A stretch of DNA of 64,000 nt, from NCBI GenBank assembly GCA_030706405.1, contig JAUZOO010000005.1, positions 1 to 64,000 of the forward strand. Direction: 5' to 3'. Shown piece by piece: positions 2,616-10,497 of this stretch. A program made the position numbers and the translations under genes. The stretch comes from Bacteroidota bacterium. GTDB lineage: Bacteria; Bacteroidota; Bacteroidia; Bacteroidales; JAAUTT01. The first letter of the stretch is position 1. Every line of letters begins with the position of its first letter. The notes beneath the pieces were generated by a model that saw only the letters and a list, made by a program, of their open reading frames with translations, had not been told where the DNA came from and searched no databases.

Positions 2616-2635
2616 ACATCTTCCTGATAAAAGCA

Positions 2636-2672
2636 AAAATCCCGTCAAGATTAGTCCTGACGGGATTTTTTG
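2636..2672. terminator. Bidirectional intrinsic terminator
   Basis: CCCGTCA (2641-2647) pairs with TGACGGG (2658-2664). The stem is flanked by an A-run on the left and a T-run on the right, so it can end both pyrC (+) and the converging polysaccharide synthase gene (-). Confidence 0.85.
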
Positions 2673-2674
2673 TG

Positions 2675-5600
2675 CTATTCCTGCTTCACATTTCCGGTTC
2701 GTTTTAATACGCCCCAGTGAGCCAACTCGCCTTTAATTGCTTTCAGGTACGATTTTATCAATACAAAGAACAACAGTTGACGATATATTATCCGTTGAAT
2801 GAACATATATGCCGCTATTTTAGGTGTAAACTTCTGCCCATCGAAGCTGTAAGCGACAAATGAAATGACACAATCGACAGCAAAGAAGCCAAAATACGCG
2901 ACAATTACCTCGGGCGCTGTTTTGGAGAAAAGCGCAAAGATTGTCAGGATATCGACAATAGGCGAAAACAGGGGTAATATCAATTGATATATCAGCACAT
3001 TGGGCAATACAATCCATCCCAAATTTGGTTTGCGGGTATTGAACAGCAAATCGCGGTGTTTCCAAAAACTTTGCATGATGCCAAACGACCAGCGGAACCG
3101 CTGTTTCAGAAACATTCGGGTCGATTCCGGGGCTTCTGTCATGGAGATGGCGTCGTTACAAGTACGTACGCGGTATCCGGCACGTAAAAAACGCAACGTT
3201 AAATCGCAATCTTCGGCCAAGGTATCGGTGGTAAAAGCGCCGACTTCGAGCATTGCCGATTTACGGAAAGCCCCAATAGCCCCGGGCACAACCATAATAG
3301 AATTTACATAATCGAAAGCCAACCGATCGAAATTCTGACTGGTAGTATATTCGATGGACTGCCAGTTGGTAAGCAGGTTTACTTTATTTCCCACTTTTAC
3401 ATTCCCCGCTACCGCAGCAACCTGCGAATCACCAAAATAAGGCATTAACATTGACACCGCATCTGGTTTAAGCAATGTGTCGGCATCGATACATACCAGG
3501 AATTCCCCTTGGGCATGTTCAATTCCAAAATTTAATGCAGAAGCTTTCCCTCCATTGGGCTTCGTCAATACCGTAACTTTTGGATTATTATCAAAAGCAT
3601 CTTTAACCAGTTGGAAAGTGCGGTCTTTTGAGCCATCGTCAACAAACACGATTTCAACGTTGGGATAATCACATTTTAACAGATTTTCGATGGTTCTTAC
3701 CACATTTACCTCTTCGTTATAAGCAGGAACTATAATGCTTACCGAGGGGTTTCCTGCCGAAATAGACCGGGGGGAATGCTTTATTTTGTAACGATTACGA
3801 ATAGCAAGCACGGCAATGCTCAGGATACGGCCAAGCACCAATATCAATGCTACAAAAAAGACTCCGTACAGAAAATGCTGGTAGAAAAAGGTAAACTCAA
3901 AAAGCGCAGAATCGGCCATTTCAGCATAGTGACGCATCTCACCTTTCACCGGAGGCATAACATCGTCGCGGGTTTTGCCCAACAATTGGGAGATCGTTAC
4001 AAACGTGTATCCTTTTTTCTTGAAAAACTCAATAATCCTCGGAAGGGCTTTCACTGTTTCAGTACGGATACCTCCGGCATCGTGCAACAAAAGGACACTT
4101 CCATTTTCCTCCTGCTTAATTGTCCGGGCAACGATGGTATCTGCAGAAACTCCTTTTTCCCAGTCATTCGGGTCGATAGAAAGGCCAACACTTATATAAT
4201 GTTCGTTACAAGCTGTTGCAAGCGGAAGAATCTGGTAGATATTTTCCGGATCGGAATCGGTATTATAAGGCGGGCGAAAAAGAATGGTGCTGTGCCCCAA
4301 CATACTTTCGAGCAAAATACGGGTCAAACTGAGTTCAAGACGAATGCGCGAGGCCGAAACTTCTTCGAGGTTGGGATGACTAAAGGTATGGTTTCCGATT
4401 TCATGGCCTTCGTCGTAAACCCTTTTCAGTAAAGGGATGTTGGCTTCGGCATTCACACCAGTCACAAAAAAGGTGGCATGAACATTATTATCCCGAAGTA
4501 TTTTTAAGATTTTGGGGGTGTACTCATCGTTGGGTCCGTCGTCAAAAGTGAGGGCTATCTTTTTCGTGGCATCGCCGGAGCGTTTAATCACAAAGCTGGT
4601 GGGCAAGGTCTCGTAGGTTTCTTCCGATATTAATTTATCATCTGCAGCCACTTCTATTTTAACTTTACCGGGGGTTGGAGAACTGACAATATCAAGGATT
4701 TCGCCTTCACCAATAAAATCGACATTGTATGGCGACTGAATGTTCCTCAGTTTCGAAAAATCAAACGGATGAAGATTTAGGGAATCATCTTGTAGCGATT
4801 TATCATAAAACTGCCACAGACGGGTATCCTCCGCCCCCAAGTACCACACGGCCACACCGGCAGTTCCAAAATCTTCGGAGGCCCTGATTGCATTAAAGCT
4901 GGTTGCGGCATCGGTAAAACAGACCTCATGCTTTTGGTTATTCCCGTCGGAATAAGAATACCGGAGGTTGTACGAATTGTTATCAAAATCAATGTTGCTA
5001 TTATTGGCAATGGCACGGTTGATGGCCTCCTGGTAAGTAACATCTTCGCCCTGATAACCAACCTGCCAGTCGTACCCGTAAGCAGCGATACACAAAACCA
5101 CTTTCTCTGCCGAAACCTTATTGCACACATCGTCCATGGCTTTCTCTATCCACGCCTGCTCCGCAATTGGTCCCGGCATACTGCTGGCGTTATGCTGGTC
5201 GTACCCCATCAAAAACAAAAAATCGTTATACTGCGCCAGTTCTTTGTAATTATAATCGGGGTTAAATGGCACAATATCCTGAGTAATGAGGTATCCCTTC
5301 TGGTTAAGTGCCTGATATAATTCCTTCTGAAACTGAATCAGATGTTCGTCGGTTTTTTCGGTTAATTCTTCAAAATCGACATTAACGCCCTGAAACTGAT
5401 ATTTTGCCAATGTCCGTAACAGACTTTGAATAAACTTCGTTCGTTTTTCCTTTGAGATTATTATCCGGTGAACATTCCGACCGTTCCATTTCTGATTAAA
5501 ATAATTTGATAACATCGGGACGATAGCCACCCTGTGTTTTCGCATCACATTCAGGGCTTTTACATCAATATCCGTGGCAATGGTATCACTTTTATCGCCC

Positions 5601-6031
5601 ACAAACAGCCACTCGGGCAATACCATATTCATTTTGCCAATGTTATTGCGCAGCGAGTAAAACGACTGATTATCCCAGTTTACATAGAAACCGGCCCTTA
5701 CCGGGAAATATTTTCGCACTACCGACGCGGGCAATAGTTTATTCTGATAAAAATTATGTTTTTCGTTCTGGCGGATTTCTTTAAGCGTTTTTTGAAAAAC
5801 AGTCTTTTCCGAATCCGGCAACGACGCTTTTATTTCATCTTTTGATAAGCGCTGAAATATCGCATGCCGGGTTGAAAGTACCGGCATATGTATGTTGGGG
5901 CTGCGCAATACCGAAAATATCAATGCCACCAGGCATAAAACGGCAATGACTAAAAAGATGTGAAAGCCCCATACAAAACGTTTCCATCGTCCGGGTTTCT
6001 CGGTTTGGAATACCTGTTTCTGTGCTGCCAT
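2675..6031 (-). CDS. Trifunctional GH18-like / CE4 deacetylase / GT2 synthase
   Basis: An unusually large (1118 aa) membrane enzyme that appears to make and modify a beta-linked, probably GlcNAc-type, polysaccharide. Domains in order: cytoplasmic N-terminus and one membrane segment (about 22-42); an extracytoplasmic GH18-like barrel (about 110-420) with GVNVDFEE, keeping D219 and the catalytic E221 but lacking the first two Asp of the DxxDxDxE motif; a NodB/CE4 deacetylase (about 488-690) with TFDDGP (D497, D498) and metal ligands H548/H552 in NHTFSHP; a membrane segment (about 715-745); and a processive GT2 (about 762-990) with DDG 798-800, DAD 849-851, ED 940-941 and QRFRW 977-981, then further membrane helices. 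A GH8 gene lies 7 bases upstream in the same operon. PNAG, chitosan-like or another polymer cannot be told apart from sequence. Confidence 0.88.
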   Translation of the reverse strand: MAAQKQVFQTEKPGRWKRFVWGFHIFLVIAVLCLVALIFSVLRSPNIHMPVLSTRHAIFQRLSKDEIKASLPDSEKTVFQKTLKEIRQNEKHNFYQNKLLPASVVRKYFPVRAGFYVNWDNQSFYSLRNNIGKMNMVLPEWLFVGDKSDTIATDIDVKALNVMRKHRVAIVPMLSNYFNQKWNGRNVHRIIISKEKRTKFIQSLLRTLAKYQFQGVNVDFEELTEKTDEHLIQFQKELYQALNQKGYLITQDIVPFNPDYNYKELAQYNDFLFLMGYDQHNASSMPGPIAEQAWIEKAMDDVCNKVSAEKVVLCIAAYGYDWQVGYQGEDVTYQEAINRAIANNSNIDFDNNSYNLRYSYSDGNNQKHEVCFTDAATSFNAIRASEDFGTAGVAVWYLGAEDTRLWQFYDKSLQDDSLNLHPFDFSKLRNIQSPYNVDFIGEGEILDIVSSPTPGKVKIEVAADDKLISEETYETLPTSFVIKRSGDATKKIALTFDDGPNDEYTPKILKILRDNNVHATFFVTGVNAEANIPLLKRVYDEGHEIGNHTFSHPNLEEVSASRIRLELSLTRILLESMLGHSTILFRPPYNTDSDPENIYQILPLATACNEHYISVGLSIDPNDWEKGVSADTIVARTIKQEENGSVLLLHDAGGIRTETVKALPRIIEFFKKKGYTFVTISQLLGKTRDDVMPPVKGEMRHYAEMADSALFEFTFFYQHFLYGVFFVALILVLGRILSIAVLAIRNRYKIKHSPRSISAGNPSVSIIVPAYNEEVNVVRTIENLLKCDYPNVEIVFVDDGSKDRTFQLVKDAFDNNPKVTVLTKPNGGKASALNFGIEHAQGEFLVCIDADTLLKPDAVSMLMPYFGDSQVAAVAGNVKVGNKVNLLTNWQSIEYTTSQNFDRLAFDYVNSIMVVPGAIGAFRKSAMLEVGAFTTDTLAEDCDLTLRFLRAGYRVRTCNDAISMTEAPESTRMFLKQRFRWSFGIMQSFWKHRDLLFNTRKPNLGWIVLPNVLIYQLILPLFSPIVDILTIFALFSKTAPEVIVAYFGFFAVDCVISFVAYSFDGQKFTPKIAAYMFIQRIIYRQLLFFVLIKSYLKAIKGELAHWGVLKRTGNVKQE

Positions 6032-6038
6032 AGCGAAG

Positions 6039-7307
6039 TTATTTAATAAGGTTTGTGGTTGTTGACGGAATCTGGTAATTCCCCGAAATTACAATCATAC
6101 AAAGTAATTGCAGGGTATTGTCATAGTACTGATAATCGTTGAACTGAAGTTTAAGCATATAATTCCACAAATCGGTAAGCCATTTTTGAGAAGAAGGATC
6201 AACCATTGCACCAACAGCCAACGGGGCCAGAAATGCCGGTGTAGCATAGTCGTTTCCATGAATATCGTCTCCATCGAGCGTAAACCCGGAATATAGATTA
6301 TCAGGATCGCCCTTTGCTTTGCGCTCCATCGTTCGGTTCATTTTGCACACCATTGAATAGGCACGCCGGTCGCCCGAAATTAAAAAATCGCAGGCCAAAC
6401 GCCATGGAATGCGGCAGGCATTGTAATAATAATGCCCATCGTGCCCCGATTCGAGGTAATGAGCTTTGGCCGGGATGTATTCGCCTTTGCTAAATTGGAT
6501 AAAATCGGGCAGTAACCCTGCCTTAGGACTGTATTTTCGTTGAATATGCTCCAAAATCTTATACTCTTTATCGAGTACCTTTAACCAAATACTATCGTGG
6601 GTTGCCTGAAAAAACTCGCGAAAATGCCCGGGCATAAAATCGGAAGTGCGTGTATCAGCATATTTAGGATCGTCATCTTCGAGGGCATCGCTCAGTAAAA
6701 CCGTGTGACGGACAATATTTAACTCGTGCTTGCGGATGGCGTCGAGCATCAGCAGGGCTTCTTTCCGGTAATTAATAACACCGCCACTCCCCCACTGTTT
6801 GTCGGCCAACAAAAGCGAAAAAGCAATGTCCATATCGGCATCGGAAGCCGAATAATTATTATCGTGAGCCGATTTGGTAACACACCCTGAAGCTATCTCC
6901 CAAGTCATTAAATACGGACTAACCAAACTTGGGTGAGCTTTGTAAAACCGAAAGAGGCCATCGAAAATATTCTTTGCTTCGGGGTCAAAACCTGCCATTG
7001 TAACGGCAATAATCATCCCGTAAGCCTGTCCTTCCGAAACGCAAATTATCCCGTGCTCGCGGTTGGTCTTCTCATTATCGAAAACATAAAATTGAAAAGG
7101 ATCGGCACAATCGCGGCGTATATGCACGGTCTTCCATTGCTTATAAAAGGCAACCGTAACTTCATCCAGCTGATGAGGGGTGTAGTTTTCAGGTTTTATA
7201 TGTGGCTGAACATACCCCGTACGCAAAAGGTACGACGCGGAAGGCGGTTGTTGACAATACAACACCGTCGAAAGAAATAGAAATCCTAAAAAAAACAGCT
7301 TACCCAT
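6039..7307 (-). CDS. Exported glycoside hydrolase family 8
   Basis: A secreted endo-glycanase (cellulase/chitosanase/BcsZ-like family). Numbering from the upstream in-frame Met at 7328, the general acid is E99 in VSEGQAYGM, and ASDADMDIAFSLLLA (161-175) is the GH8 signature with D163/D165. I prefer the start at 7307 (MGKLFFLGFLFLSTVLYC), which gives a clean signal peptide. A CAAATATA promoter-like element (complement of TATATTTG) sits at 7326-7333 and would place the longer start inside the promoter. It is the first gene of the operon with the GH18/CE4/GT2 synthase, only 7 bases apart, so it probably trims or releases the polymer made by that protein. By family, substrate could be beta-1,4-glucan or chitosan; the neighbouring deacetylase favours a deacetylated aminoglycan. 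Confidence 0.85.
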   Translation of the reverse strand: MGKLFFLGFLFLSTVLYCQQPPSASYLLRTGYVQPHIKPENYTPHQLDEVTVAFYKQWKTVHIRRDCADPFQFYVFDNEKTNREHGIICVSEGQAYGMIIAVTMAGFDPEAKNIFDGLFRFYKAHPSLVSPYLMTWEIASGCVTKSAHDNNYSASDADMDIAFSLLLADKQWGSGGVINYRKEALLMLDAIRKHELNIVRHTVLLSDALEDDDPKYADTRTSDFMPGHFREFFQATHDSIWLKVLDKEYKILEHIQRKYSPKAGLLPDFIQFSKGEYIPAKAHYLESGHDGHYYYNACRIPWRLACDFLISGDRRAYSMVCKMNRTMERKAKGDPDNLYSGFTLDGDDIHGNDYATPAFLAPLAVGAMVDPSSQKWLTDLWNYMLKLQFNDYQYYDNTLQLLCMIVISGNYQIPSTTTNLIK

Positions 7308-7325
7308 AGATGAAAACCTTACCCT

Positions 7326-7333
7326 CAAATATA
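7326..7333 (-). promoter_or_regulatory. Possible -7 element of the GH8-synthase operon
   Basis: CAAATATA on the plus strand is TATATTTG on the minus strand, matching TAnnTTTG. I see no convincing TTTG -33 partner at 19-21 bases, so the call rests on the -7 motif and its position about 20 bases before the preferred ATG at 7307. Confidence 0.35.
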
Positions 7334-7433
7334 AGCAACAATTAACGTTTATCGAAGTTCCGGCAAAAAATCAGATAAACAACCTGGGCATAAGTATCGT
7401 CGAAATTGAAAACCCATTGAGATGGATTGAACT

Positions 7434-7797
7434 TTACCCAACAAGCACTGGAGGTCACCAGACAGAGAGGGAAATATCCCCGACAAAAACAGATGAACTA
7501 TTGGCAAGCATGTGAATATTTTCGCAAACATAGAAAGCCATTTAGCAAAGTGGGGAACACCTTCGGCAGACATAGATAAAACCCCGATAGACAGGGGAAC
7601 CCTTTCGGCAGGCATAGACGACCCTCTGACAAAGAAGGAAATAGTTTCGCAAATATTGAAACCTGTTTAACAAAGTGGGGAATATTTTCGGCAGACATAG
7701 CTGAATTTCAGACAGAGCAGAAAATCTCGCTGATAGATATTGAACAACATCAGACAAAATAGGGGGTGTTTCCGACAAGAACAAAAGAGAGTAAAAA
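7434..7797. repeat. 21-bp periodic imperfect tandem repeat, locus A
   Basis: About 17 degenerate units run through the gap between the divergent GH8 and mprF genes. The recurrent CA (or TA) dinucleotide inside cores such as GGCAGACATAG, CGCAAACATAG or AACAAAGTGGGG recurs at 7442, 7463, 7484, 7505, 7525, 7546, 7567, 7588, 7609, 7630, 7650, 7671, 7692, 7713, 7734, 7755 and 7776: a 21-base step with only two 20-base exceptions. All three minus-strand frames stay open over much of it, but no start or coding signal is convincing. I read it as non-coding or as a decayed repeat. The rest of the 7329-7902 gap contains nothing else I recognise. Confidence 0.75.
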
Positions 7798-7902
7798 ATG
7801 CAGAAAGATAAAACATACCGCTGCGCTTATCCGATAAAAAACATACCGGCTTTAGATTTCTGCAAAAATTCCTAAATTTAAAATCTTCAATAAAAAAGAT
7901 TA

Positions 7903-10497
7903 ATGAAAGCTATTCTTAACAAAATCAAATTTTTACTCGGAAACAAAACAACCTGGCAAATCATCCTTGCCCTGTTTATGCTGGTGTTATGCGTTTATTT
8001 TATCAAGAATGAACACCTCGAACTTCAGAAAATTCAACAAACACTGGGAACTGCAAGACCCGGATTTATCATTCTGGGCATATTGCTGACCATTGTCTAC
8101 ATCTTACTCCAGGCCTGGATGTATGTCGAAAGCTTTAAAGCCACCGAGTCGTCCATTCCCTTGTCAACCGCCATCAAATTATTCCTGAAACGAAATCTTG
8201 TAAGCGTTTTTTTACCGGCAGGCGGATTCTCCTCGCTGGCCTTCTTTAACAAGGAACTGCATCAGAAACAAATTACCAACACCCAGATTTATTTTGCCTC
8301 CTACCTCTATGGACTTTGCGGACTGGCCACAGTGATCGTGGTGGCTGTTCCTACCTTATTATATATGGTATATAAAAGCAGCCTGTCGGCAAACGAAATA
8401 ATTGCGTTTGTCTTTCTGCTGATATTGGTTTCGGCCATGTCGTGGGCGGCCTGGTCTATTATCAAAAAAGGATTCCTTCATAAACTGATCTTAAAGCACA
8501 GCCCCAATATTGCTATCTTGCTCGACGATATTAATGCCACCTCGTTTAACAAAAAACATTTTATTAATACGCTATTAATATCGATGCTCATAGAGCTGGT
8601 AGGAATTGCCCATATTTATGTTGCAATATTGGCCTTGGGGCAGCAGCCATCGCTCGAATTAGCAATTGTTGCCTATGTGGTAATGGTAATATTGCTGATT
8701 GCATCGCCATTTTTGCGGGGGCTTGGGGCTATCGAAATCTCGATGGCGTATGCGTTCGTTCAATATGGTTACCCCACAGTAGTGGCGGCTACGGTTACAC
8801 TGCTGTTCCGTTTTTTCGAATTCTGGTTACCATTGTTTGCTGGCGTTTTCAGCTTTTTTTCCAAAAAGGAGAGCATACTGTACCGCATTTTACCCACAAT
8901 CATAATCCTCTCGCTGGGACTCATCAACGTCCTGTCGGCACTTACGCCCTCTATCCCCACAAGGTTAAGAATGCTCGAAGATATTTTCCCACTCGGAATT
9001 GTAGAGGTTTCAAGTCACCTGGTATTACTGTTCGGGATTATTCTGTGCCTGGTATCTTATTATTTGCTGATTGGTTCGCGCAATGCCTGGTGGCTGGCCA
9101 TCATCCTCAGCGGTTTTTCGGCAATCGGACATTTGCTCAAAGGTGTGGATTACGAAGAAGCAATTTTTGCATCCGTATCATTCCTCTCGCTGATTGTAGC
9201 GCGCGATTATTATTATTTTAAACCCAACCCCCATTTTCAAAAGAAGAACCTGCCCAATATCCTGATGGTATTCACGGCTTCGTTTCTCTATGCGCTGATA
9301 GGATTTTACTTTCTCGAAAAACGCCATCTCGGAGTTGATTACAGCATGAAGGAGTCGCTCGAAACTGTACTCAAAATGTATTTTACGTTTGACAATCCTT
9401 TTCCCTTCACCAAATTTGGGAAATTGTTTATCGAATCGGTTTACCTTAGCGAAGTAGTCGTTGTTTCGTATATCATTTATATTTTCCTTCATCCCTACAC
9501 CCACCCTATTCCAAAACAATCGGAATTGCATTCAAAAGCCGACGAGTTACTAAAACAATATGGTCAGTCGCCGCTCGACTACTTTAAAACCTATCCCGAT
9601 AAACAAATTTTCCTTTCGGAAGCTGTTAACGGATTTGTTTCGTTCAAAACCTCGGGAAAATACGCCGTAGTACTTGAAAACCCTGTATGCAGCGACGATC
9701 AGGACCTCATTACCCTCATTACCGAATTCGACCTGTTTTGCCGTAAAGCGGGGCTCATCAGCATTTACTATCGAATCCCGGAGGTGTCGCGAAATCTATA
9801 TCAGGATCTCCGCAAGCGCACCTTGCTGATTGGCCAGGAAGCTCGCGTTGATATCGAATCGTTTACCCTTTCGGGCAAAGACATGAAGTCGATCCGCAAT
9901 GCCCTCAATAAAATTGAAGCCTCGGGTTGTTTCCTGAAGATTTACGAACCTCCGCTTAAGTCGGGGCTTGTACAAAAACTCCAACAAGTATCGGACGAAT
10001 GGTTAAAATCTAACGAACGGGAAGAAGTAGGATTTTCGCAAGGTATATTTAATCCTGCCGAGATTAAAAACCAGATGGTGTTTACCGTTGAAAACAACGA
10101 CGAAAAAGTACTCGCATTTTTAAATATCATCCCCGATTTTACCCCCAATGAAGTTACTTATGATCTGGTTCGCATGTCCGATGATGCCCCTAACGGCGTA
10201 ATTGATTATTTACTGGTTAATATTTTTACCCATTTTAAAGAAAAAGGAATTCGTTATGTTAACCTTGGACTTGTACCGTTGGCGGGAATAGAAAAAGCCG
10301 AAAACATTACCGAACGGGTACTTAAATTTGCCTACGAAAACATCAAAAACTTTAACCATTACCGCGGACTACGCGAGTACAAAGAAAAATTCTGTCCCGA
10401 ATGGTCCAATAAATACATCGCCTACTCCTCCGACTTTGAACTGGTCATGCTGCCCAATATTCTGAAAGACATCGGACGTATGGATGACTTGGAGTAA
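7903..10497 (+). CDS. mprF: MprF-like phosphatidylglycerol aminoacyltransferase/flippase
   Basis: A bifunctional membrane protein expected to add an amino acid (lysine in the classic enzyme) from aminoacyl-tRNA to phosphatidylglycerol and flip the product outward, lowering surface charge and giving cationic-peptide resistance. The 864 residues match full-length MprF. Roughly residues 1-530 are repeated hydrophobic helices (UPF0104-like flippase plus additional helices). About 540-864 is the soluble DUF2156/GNAT-like transferase, with features such as FVSFKTSGKYAVVLENPVC and YRGLREYKEKFCPEWSNKYI near the end. It is transcribed away from the GH8-synthase operon and ends before a terminator. In Gram-negatives the transferred amino acid can differ (Lys, Ala, or ornithine in related enzymes), and this cannot be read from sequence. 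Confidence 0.88.
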   Translation: MKAILNKIKFLLGNKTTWQIILALFMLVLCVYFIKNEHLELQKIQQTLGTARPGFIILGILLTIVYILLQAWMYVESFKATESSIPLSTAIKLFLKRNLVSVFLPAGGFSSLAFFNKELHQKQITNTQIYFASYLYGLCGLATVIVVAVPTLLYMVYKSSLSANEIIAFVFLLILVSAMSWAAWSIIKKGFLHKLILKHSPNIAILLDDINATSFNKKHFINTLLISMLIELVGIAHIYVAILALGQQPSLELAIVAYVVMVILLIASPFLRGLGAIEISMAYAFVQYGYPTVVAATVTLLFRFFEFWLPLFAGVFSFFSKKESILYRILPTIIILSLGLINVLSALTPSIPTRLRMLEDIFPLGIVEVSSHLVLLFGIILCLVSYYLLIGSRNAWWLAIILSGFSAIGHLLKGVDYEEAIFASVSFLSLIVARDYYYFKPNPHFQKKNLPNILMVFTASFLYALIGFYFLEKRHLGVDYSMKESLETVLKMYFTFDNPFPFTKFGKLFIESVYLSEVVVVSYIIYIFLHPYTHPIPKQSELHSKADELLKQYGQSPLDYFKTYPDKQIFLSEAVNGFVSFKTSGKYAVVLENPVCSDDQDLITLITEFDLFCRKAGLISIYYRIPEVSRNLYQDLRKRTLLIGQEARVDIESFTLSGKDMKSIRNALNKIEASGCFLKIYEPPLKSGLVQKLQQVSDEWLKSNEREEVGFSQGIFNPAEIKNQMVFTVENNDEKVLAFLNIIPDFTPNEVTYDLVRMSDDAPNGVIDYLLVNIFTHFKEKGIRYVNLGLVPLAGIEKAENITERVLKFAYENIKNFNHYRGLREYKEKFCPEWSNKYIAYSSDFELVMLPNILKDIGRMDDLE

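Follow-up and report, generated by a model that had tools for sequence, protein, structure and literature searches.

A GH18-CE4-GT2 fusion protein of Bacteroidota, paired with a GH8 hydrolase, is a probable all-in-one maker of partly de-N-acetylated poly-N-acetylglucosamine

Introduction

MatB of Streptomyces is the nearest characterised relative of the protein described in this work, a fusion of a family 18 glycoside hydrolase (GH18), a deacetylase of carbohydrate esterase family 4 (CE4) and a family 2 glycosyltransferase (GT2), encoded in the first 64,000 nucleotides of contig JAUZOO010000005.1 of a Bacteroidota bacterium (assembly GCA_030706405.1), a stretch that we call the window. MatB joins an outside CE4 through a transmembrane (TM) segment to an inside GT2 and makes poly-N-acetylglucosamine (PNAG), as seen with an antibody and dispersin B; its GT2 is nearest to PgaC and its CE4 to PgdA, and its authors, who met the same ambiguity of linkage as we do here, found PNAG (PMC5972031). 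The CE4-TM-GT2 half of the fusion is alike, in one chain, with the CE4 predicted outside and the GT2 inside; MatB differs in having no GH18, in having a partner, MatA, and in being a Gram-positive protein.

The PgaABCD system of E. coli resembles the fusion in its PgaC-type GT2 and in PgaB, which acts outside and is annotated as a deacetylase and a glycoside hydrolase in one protein, but it divides the activities among separate proteins, and its PgaB scores 24.6 bits to the fusion CE4, against 115 bits for NodB. The rhizobial NodB-NodC pair likewise combines a CE4 and a GT2 that act on N-acetylglucosamine (GlcNAc) oligomers; here too the proteins are separate, and the NodC GT2 is more distant than that of PgaC. 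The initial annotation of this locus had assumed that the activities of PNAG-type systems always reside in separate proteins, a premise contradicted by PgaB, which combines two of them, and by MatB, in which CE4 and GT2 are fused (PMC5972031).

Two further systems are relevant to a neighbouring gene. In C. difficile, HexSDF comprises a glycosyltransferase, a CE4-type deacetylase, an MprF-like flippase and a two-component system, and leads to a cationic aminohexosyl lipid; HexS is annotated as a monogalactosyldiacylglycerol synthase and not as a GT2, HexF is without a lysinylation domain, and the product is a glycolipid (PMC10128005). The glycosyltransferase of the fusion is a GT2, not of this synthase type. 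AcvB is a periplasmic lysyl-phosphatidylglycerol hydrolase whose gene shares an operon with that of LpiA, an MprF homologue (PMC13197417).

Our analysis suggests that the fusion is probably an all-in-one maker of partly de-N-acetylated poly-GlcNAc, whose deacetylated product would be cut by the GH8 hydrolase encoded beside it. In literature searches on the fusion, MatB, mprF/virJ and GH8, judged mostly by listings, we found no description of this fusion or of its mprF link, and none of its operon form with GH8; both the pairing with GH8 and the linkage to an mprF-like gene look new.

The fusion protein

The fusion gene (2675..6031, minus strand, as are all its parts below) is a single open reading frame of 1118 aa with Pfam matches and intact orthologues, which bears out the initial annotation of GH18, deacetylase and GT2 in one polypeptide. 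The order is TM helix, GH18 barrel, CE4 deacetylase, TM helix and processive GT2. A strong terminator-like hairpin of 16 pairs lies directly 3' of the gene (2635..2670, minus strand), which suggests a two-gene transcript of GH8 and fusion.

The GH18 barrel (residues 111-410, 4802..5701, predicted outside) was recognised by Pfam (Glyco_hydro_18, best stretch residues 191-399, E 1.1e-20) and by structure superposition. Its top match among those listed (VIA-align) was the Chromobacterium violaceum chitinase 5jh8 (Z 36.6, rmsd 1.9, 303 residues aligned), followed by Bacillus SleL, 4s3j (Z 35.1, rmsd 2.4, 304 aligned). Within the DxxDxDxE motif, the conserved end D219-x-E221 (5369..5377) is kept, so that barrel, catalytic Glu, preceding Asp and DxE are all present, and the first two Asp are replaced by Q214 and N217. 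The initial annotation had rightly noticed these two losses beside the retained Glu; they are not special, because the same positions are changed in the solved relatives 5jh8, YdhD and SleL, and we read them as a subgroup trait and no sign of decay. In our 84-row alignment, N217 and E221 occur in 82/82 ungapped rows. Among 38 wider homologues the Glu is kept in 34, is Asp in two (L101, L103) and is lost in two roseobacter proteins (L155, L200), the two roseobacters checked, whose GH18 active site is degenerate; in L155 a Pfam scan no longer finds GH18.

The CE4 domain (residues 488-686, 3974..4570, predicted outside; Polysacc_deac_1 at residues 488-591, E 3.3e-33) carries D497/D498, H548, H552, R586, D623 and H650, invariant in the alignments, and thus the Asp-His-His metal triad (D498, H548, H552) together with the catalytic motifs. 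Its nearest solved relatives are PgdA-type deacetylases, with 40% identity to Bc1960 (4l1g), a kinship based on sequence relatives and on this identity, since GH18 and GT2 chains filled the structure match list.

The GT2 synthase domain (residues 762-1000, 3032..3748; Glycos_transf_2/Glyco_tranf_2_3 at residues 762-984, E 3.8e-38) shows no loss of polymer-synthase motifs on closer alignment: DADT, EDCD and QRFRW stand in all ungapped rows of the 84. It matches the PgaC_IcaA model (TIGR03937) over positions 6-391 of 407 with 201.8 bits, against 107.3 bits for NodC, and for 38/38 fusion GT2 domains E. coli PgaC gives a better score than NodC. With its TM helices it superposes on hyaluronan synthase 8snc (Z 34.1, rmsd 2.9, 372 aligned). 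Actinobacterial CE4-GT2 proteins were the closest GT2 references tested, at 265 and 236 bits, against 145 for PgaC. A tree that took E. coli PgaC, NodC and two CE4-GT2 proteins as references had branches of 9-10 changes per column for these references and an unusable base, so we relied on pairwise scores, which show nearness and not descent.

How is the protein placed in the membrane? Hydropathy gives TM segments at residues 24-42 (5906..5962; four K/R before and two after, hence a predicted inside N-terminus; helix 14-42 in the model), at about 718-742 (3806..3880, returning the chain to the cytoplasm) and several at about 1004-1060, within a set of C-terminal TM helices (residues 1002-1099, 2735..3028). 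An AlphaFold model from a 35-row alignment (mean predicted local distance difference test score, pLDDT, 81.8) shows the barrel, the deacetylase, a long helix at 698-752, the GT2 and the C-terminal helices; its predicted template modelling score (pTM) of 0.55 makes the relative placement of the domains unreliable. The positive-inside charges and the model support the predicted topology that the initial annotation had put forward, with GH18 and CE4 outside and GT2 inside.

Distribution of the fusion

A frameshift, chance frame or assembly error joining separate genes was considered and rejected: the frame is intact and at least 1100 aa long in 75/80 related loci, and in-frame stops were found in none of the 36 genomes with matches from our phylum and order samples. 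Three of the other five loci are truncated at a contig start or end (L076, L081, L085) and one, L048, starts at query residue 110. The fifth, L050 (Flavobacterium sp. YO12), carries a frameshift or a sequencing error at about query residue 136, its match length being no multiple of three. Intact frames come from metagenome-assembled genomes of Bacteroidales, from Solitalea, Hymenobacter and Chitinophagaceae, and from many Flavobacterium.

In a sample of 395 Bacteroidota genomes drawn evenly, the fusion is present in 22 genomes and in 12/171 genera; these phylum profiles, those of the order and those of the mprF scan take the top 2 scored candidates per genome. It also occurs in Alphaproteobacteria and Deinococcus: 20 records of a plasmid collection match over at least 80% of the query, 11 from Sphingomonadaceae, 7 from Rhodobacterales and one each from Deinococcus and Prevotella, the last of the same phylum. 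The fusion is thus a stable, patchily distributed family, and as a known, widespread kind of protein it is not new in itself. We take it to be CDD cd06549, GH18_trifunctional, an entry for bacterial proteins that unite GH18, GT2 and a polysaccharide deacetylase, whose domain order, GH18, GT2, deacetylase, may differ from the GH18-CE4-GT2 seen here; we know of no characterised member.

The GH8 partner

Directly upstream of the fusion lies a gene for a 422-aa GH8 hydrolase (6039..7307, minus strand; Glyco_hydro_8, E 3.9e-31). We place its start at ATG 7307 and not at the earlier TTG 7328, and it ends 7 bp before the fusion ATG. The protein has an N-terminal hydrophobic segment and is presumably exported.

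Chitosanase-type GH8 enzymes have the acid Glu in SEG, a second Glu in a YLES insertion and Asn where CelA has Asp. The window's protein has the Glu in SEG (E92), the Glu in YLES (E286) and the Asn in YYYNACR; E92 and E286 occur in 18/18 close homologues, its own sequence included, and a Glu of the E286 type is found in chitosanase-type and not in CelA-type enzymes. From work on chitosanase K17, E286 is presumably the base. The best solved relatives are 5xd0 (labelled 'Glucanase'), 7cju and 1v5c (chitosanases), with CelA far weaker. BcsZ is also a GH8 beside a GT2 synthase; a BcsZ-like cellulose role is rejected for this enzyme, whose relatives are of the chitosanase type and which scores 47.9 bits to the BcsZ model (NF008305), against a cut-off of 299.

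Among 393 genomes of the order, 18 have this GH8 (E<=1e-50), 17 have the fusion and five have both, and in all five (G000, G002, G476, G561, G588) the GH8 gene stands directly upstream, overlapping or within about 20 bp. The co-encoded GH8 of the initial annotation therefore stands as a regular partner in 5/17 fusion genomes of the order and falls away elsewhere: the flanks of 80 named loci, 75 of them with at least 1500 bases upstream, gave no GH8. A GH8 tree separates, in a 99/100 split, 12 solo GH8s from the five paired ones (the window's included) and one congeneric solo GH8. Of the 12, eight are 487-568 aa long with a C-terminal tail that, judged by sequence, looks like a type 9 sorting domain; the paired GH8s have no tails. 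From the adjacency, the tree split and the absent tails, the paired GH8 appears to work on the side of the synthase, and one corner of the family seems to have acquired or retained it.

The mprF-like neighbour

Divergent from the GH8-fusion pair, and passed over by the initial annotation, is a gene with LPG_synthase_TM and LPG_synthase_C domains in Pfam (7903..10497, plus strand). We call it mprF-like, after MprF, the lysyl-phosphatidylglycerol synthase/flippase that gives membrane lipids positive charge, since it scores 535.5 bits to the NCBIfam model bifunc_MprF (NF033480), under the cut-off of 600, though both Pfam domains are present. The intergenic region (7308..7902) leaves 595 bp between the two starts; it contains, at 7552-7725, three degenerate 49-nt direct repeats that are 69-73% alike.

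This gene is the only neighbour in the window that clusters with neighbours of other loci. An mprF-like gene stands by the fusion in Flavobacterium loci L038, L049, L052, L058 and L075, in the sampled genomes G325 (perhaps the genome of L038) and G364, and, as a partial gene cut by the contig end, on a Sphingobacteriales contig (L043). In G364 (L183:11945-14525) the two halves of the gene stand in separate, overlapping frames. In another Bacteroidales genome, G476, both an mprF-like gene and, 11 bp from it, a gene for a 480-aa AcvB/VirJ-type protein point towards the GH8-fusion pair; the VirJ match in the window's own genome is partial and not near the fusion. Four of the 11 Sphingomonadaceae records with a full-length fusion were examined, and in each of them the fusion, virJ and an mprF-like gene fall inside about 10 kb, in an order that changes from record to record; in Sphingobium TomTYG73 these three genes, a response regulator and a histidine kinase overlap or nearly touch. 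Neither mprF-like nor virJ genes were seen near the match in L201, a Sphingomonadaceae record with the GT2 part only, and no mprF-like gene was found in the stretches fetched around the fusion of Prevotella (L160), Deinococcus (L154) and roseobacters (L155, L199, L200).

At a threshold of E<=1e-60, 13 of the 395 Bacteroidota genomes have an mprF-like gene, and seven have it together with the fusion, against 0.7 expected (Fisher 8e-7, by genus 7e-5, both uncorrected for phylogeny). The two genes lie within 8.5 kb in three of these seven (G000, G325, G364), against 0.04 expected, again uncorrected for phylogeny; in the other four they are not close together. Among 179 genomes of Flavobacterium, the genus of G325, the fusion is found in 13, the mprF-like gene in 12 and the two together in five, and all five have the genes in head-to-head arrangement, the matches lying 306-790 bp apart; G246, of the same genus in the phylum sample, has both far apart. 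The head-to-head placement is common to Flavobacterium and the window, where GH8 lies between.

The repeated adjacency hints at a shared job in envelope defence. We consider as a possibility, though a rather doubtful one, that the fusion and the MprF/AcvB lysyl-phosphatidylglycerol cycle form an envelope 'cationisation' module common to Bacteroidota and Alphaproteobacteria, a suggestion drawn from gene neighbourhood. Envelope stress would then, on the same tentative footing, lead the cell to make a cationic lipid for the membrane together with an amino-sugar polymer made cationic by de-N-acetylation, and two layers of the envelope would gain positive charge. A stronger version would have the polymer served directly by the mprF-like flippase or by its lipid, as acceptor, anchor or flipped intermediate. 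A functional link would join two envelope-charge strategies, lysyl lipids and deacetylated polysaccharide, that are usually studied apart and would give a function to a widespread uncharacterised protein family. Against a cationisation module, 15 of the 22 sampled fusion genomes have no mprF-like gene at the threshold used.

Proposed function and alternatives

What would such a protein make? From the domain set, the catalytic motifs, the predicted topology and the gene pairing, all read from the DNA, we infer substrate, linkage, co-synthetic order, export and charge function as follows. The cytoplasmic GT2 would polymerise GlcNAc from UDP-GlcNAc and thread the chain through its own membrane helices; the tethered CE4 would strip some N-acetyl groups as the chain emerges, the tethered GH18 would cut it at acetylated stretches, and the separate GH8 would cut deacetylated, glucosamine-rich stretches. 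The expected result is poly-GlcNAc that is partly de-N-acetylated, carries positive charge, is limited in length and stays in the periplasm or at the surface. By analogy, this scheme would mirror PgaB and PgaC in one chain and extend that of MatB. With synthase, deacetylase and hydrolase in one gene, the fusion offers a compact test bed for the coupled synthesis and modification of amino-sugar biofilm polymers, in phyla where these are little studied.

Several results weigh against an all-in-one poly-GlcNAc maker, which we nevertheless favour and hold to be probable. The 201.8 bits of the fusion do not reach the TIGR03937 cut-off of 422.3, and the model, at its pTM of 0.55, does not place the domains reliably. 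A genome scan for a PgaA-type exporter, in which one control genome exceeded the cut-off, gave a best TIGR03939 match of 44.1 bits against 366.65, the BcsC type not being searched; the product may therefore stay periplasmic or leave by another exporter. The changed or missing Glu in 4/38 homologues indicates that GH18 activity may be dispensable, and the 80 loci without GH8 that this enzyme is not essential. Finally, the signals on linkage conflict: the PgaC-like GT2 points to beta-1,6, whereas the chitosanase-type GH8, the chitinase-like GH18 and the NodB/PgdA-like CE4 point to beta-1,4.

A beta-1,4 chitosan-type polymer in place of PNAG, a sub-question compatible with poly-GlcNAc synthesis, is a serious possibility, though not the one we would choose. 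It would suit the GH8, a GH18 structurally nearest to 5jh8 and SleL, and a CE4 that is nearest to PgdA and scores higher with NodB than with PgaB; it fits poorly with the GT2, closer to PgaC than to NodC in every one of the 38 domains, and with MatB, which has the same CE4 affinity yet makes dispersin B-sensitive PNAG (PMC5972031). The recurring mprF-like gene, which in Sphingobium TomTYG73 shares its overlapping run with two-component genes, raises a different product, a membrane-anchored amino-glycolipid or short oligosaccharide lipid: the GT2 would add GlcNAc to a lipid, the mprF-like protein would flip it and the CE4 would deacetylate it outside, by analogy with HexSDF, where a glycosyltransferase, a deacetylase and an MprF-like flippase are paired for an aminohexosyl lipid. 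We judge this improbable, because HexS is not a GT2 (PMC10128005), the fusion GT2 is a near-full-length match to a processive synthase with its own TM helices, GH18 and GH8 would be left without a role, and 15 of the 22 sampled fusion genomes have no mprF-like gene at E<=1e-60. Least probable is that GH18 and GH8 serve nutrition by degrading chitin or chitosan from outside the cell, their linkage to a synthase being incidental. In favour of this, related solo GH8s have secretion-type tails and in some cases stand by LacI-type or SusD-like genes (labels read from sequence); against it, the paired GH8s are tailless and adjacent to the fusion in 5/5 genomes, and in most homologues by far GH18 and the synthase form one protein.

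Other neighbours of the fusion

Neighbour clustering over 84 loci found no conserved fusion operon across Bacteroidota, and the neighbours vary by lineage. In 6 of the 83 loci clustered (the 84 less L001), namely L019, L020, L059, L073, L082 and L088, a protein of about 310 aa (309 aa) is encoded directly upstream of the fusion; it has no Pfam match (L019 scanned) and, as an apparently exported, barrel-like protein, is a candidate outer-membrane partner. A DUF3131 gene follows the fusion in 3/3 roseobacter records examined (L155, L199, L200), and the protein of L155 has no sequence relative in the PDB below E 0.8. Seven Flavobacterium loci, L024 among them, carry another polysaccharide deacetylase gene, separate from the fusion and immediately upstream of it. 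In Kocuria rosea, a gene labelled 'chitinase' (L156:7029-8015), whose GH18 match stays under the threshold, is convergent to a CE4-GT2 fusion and perhaps represents the counterpart in unfused form.

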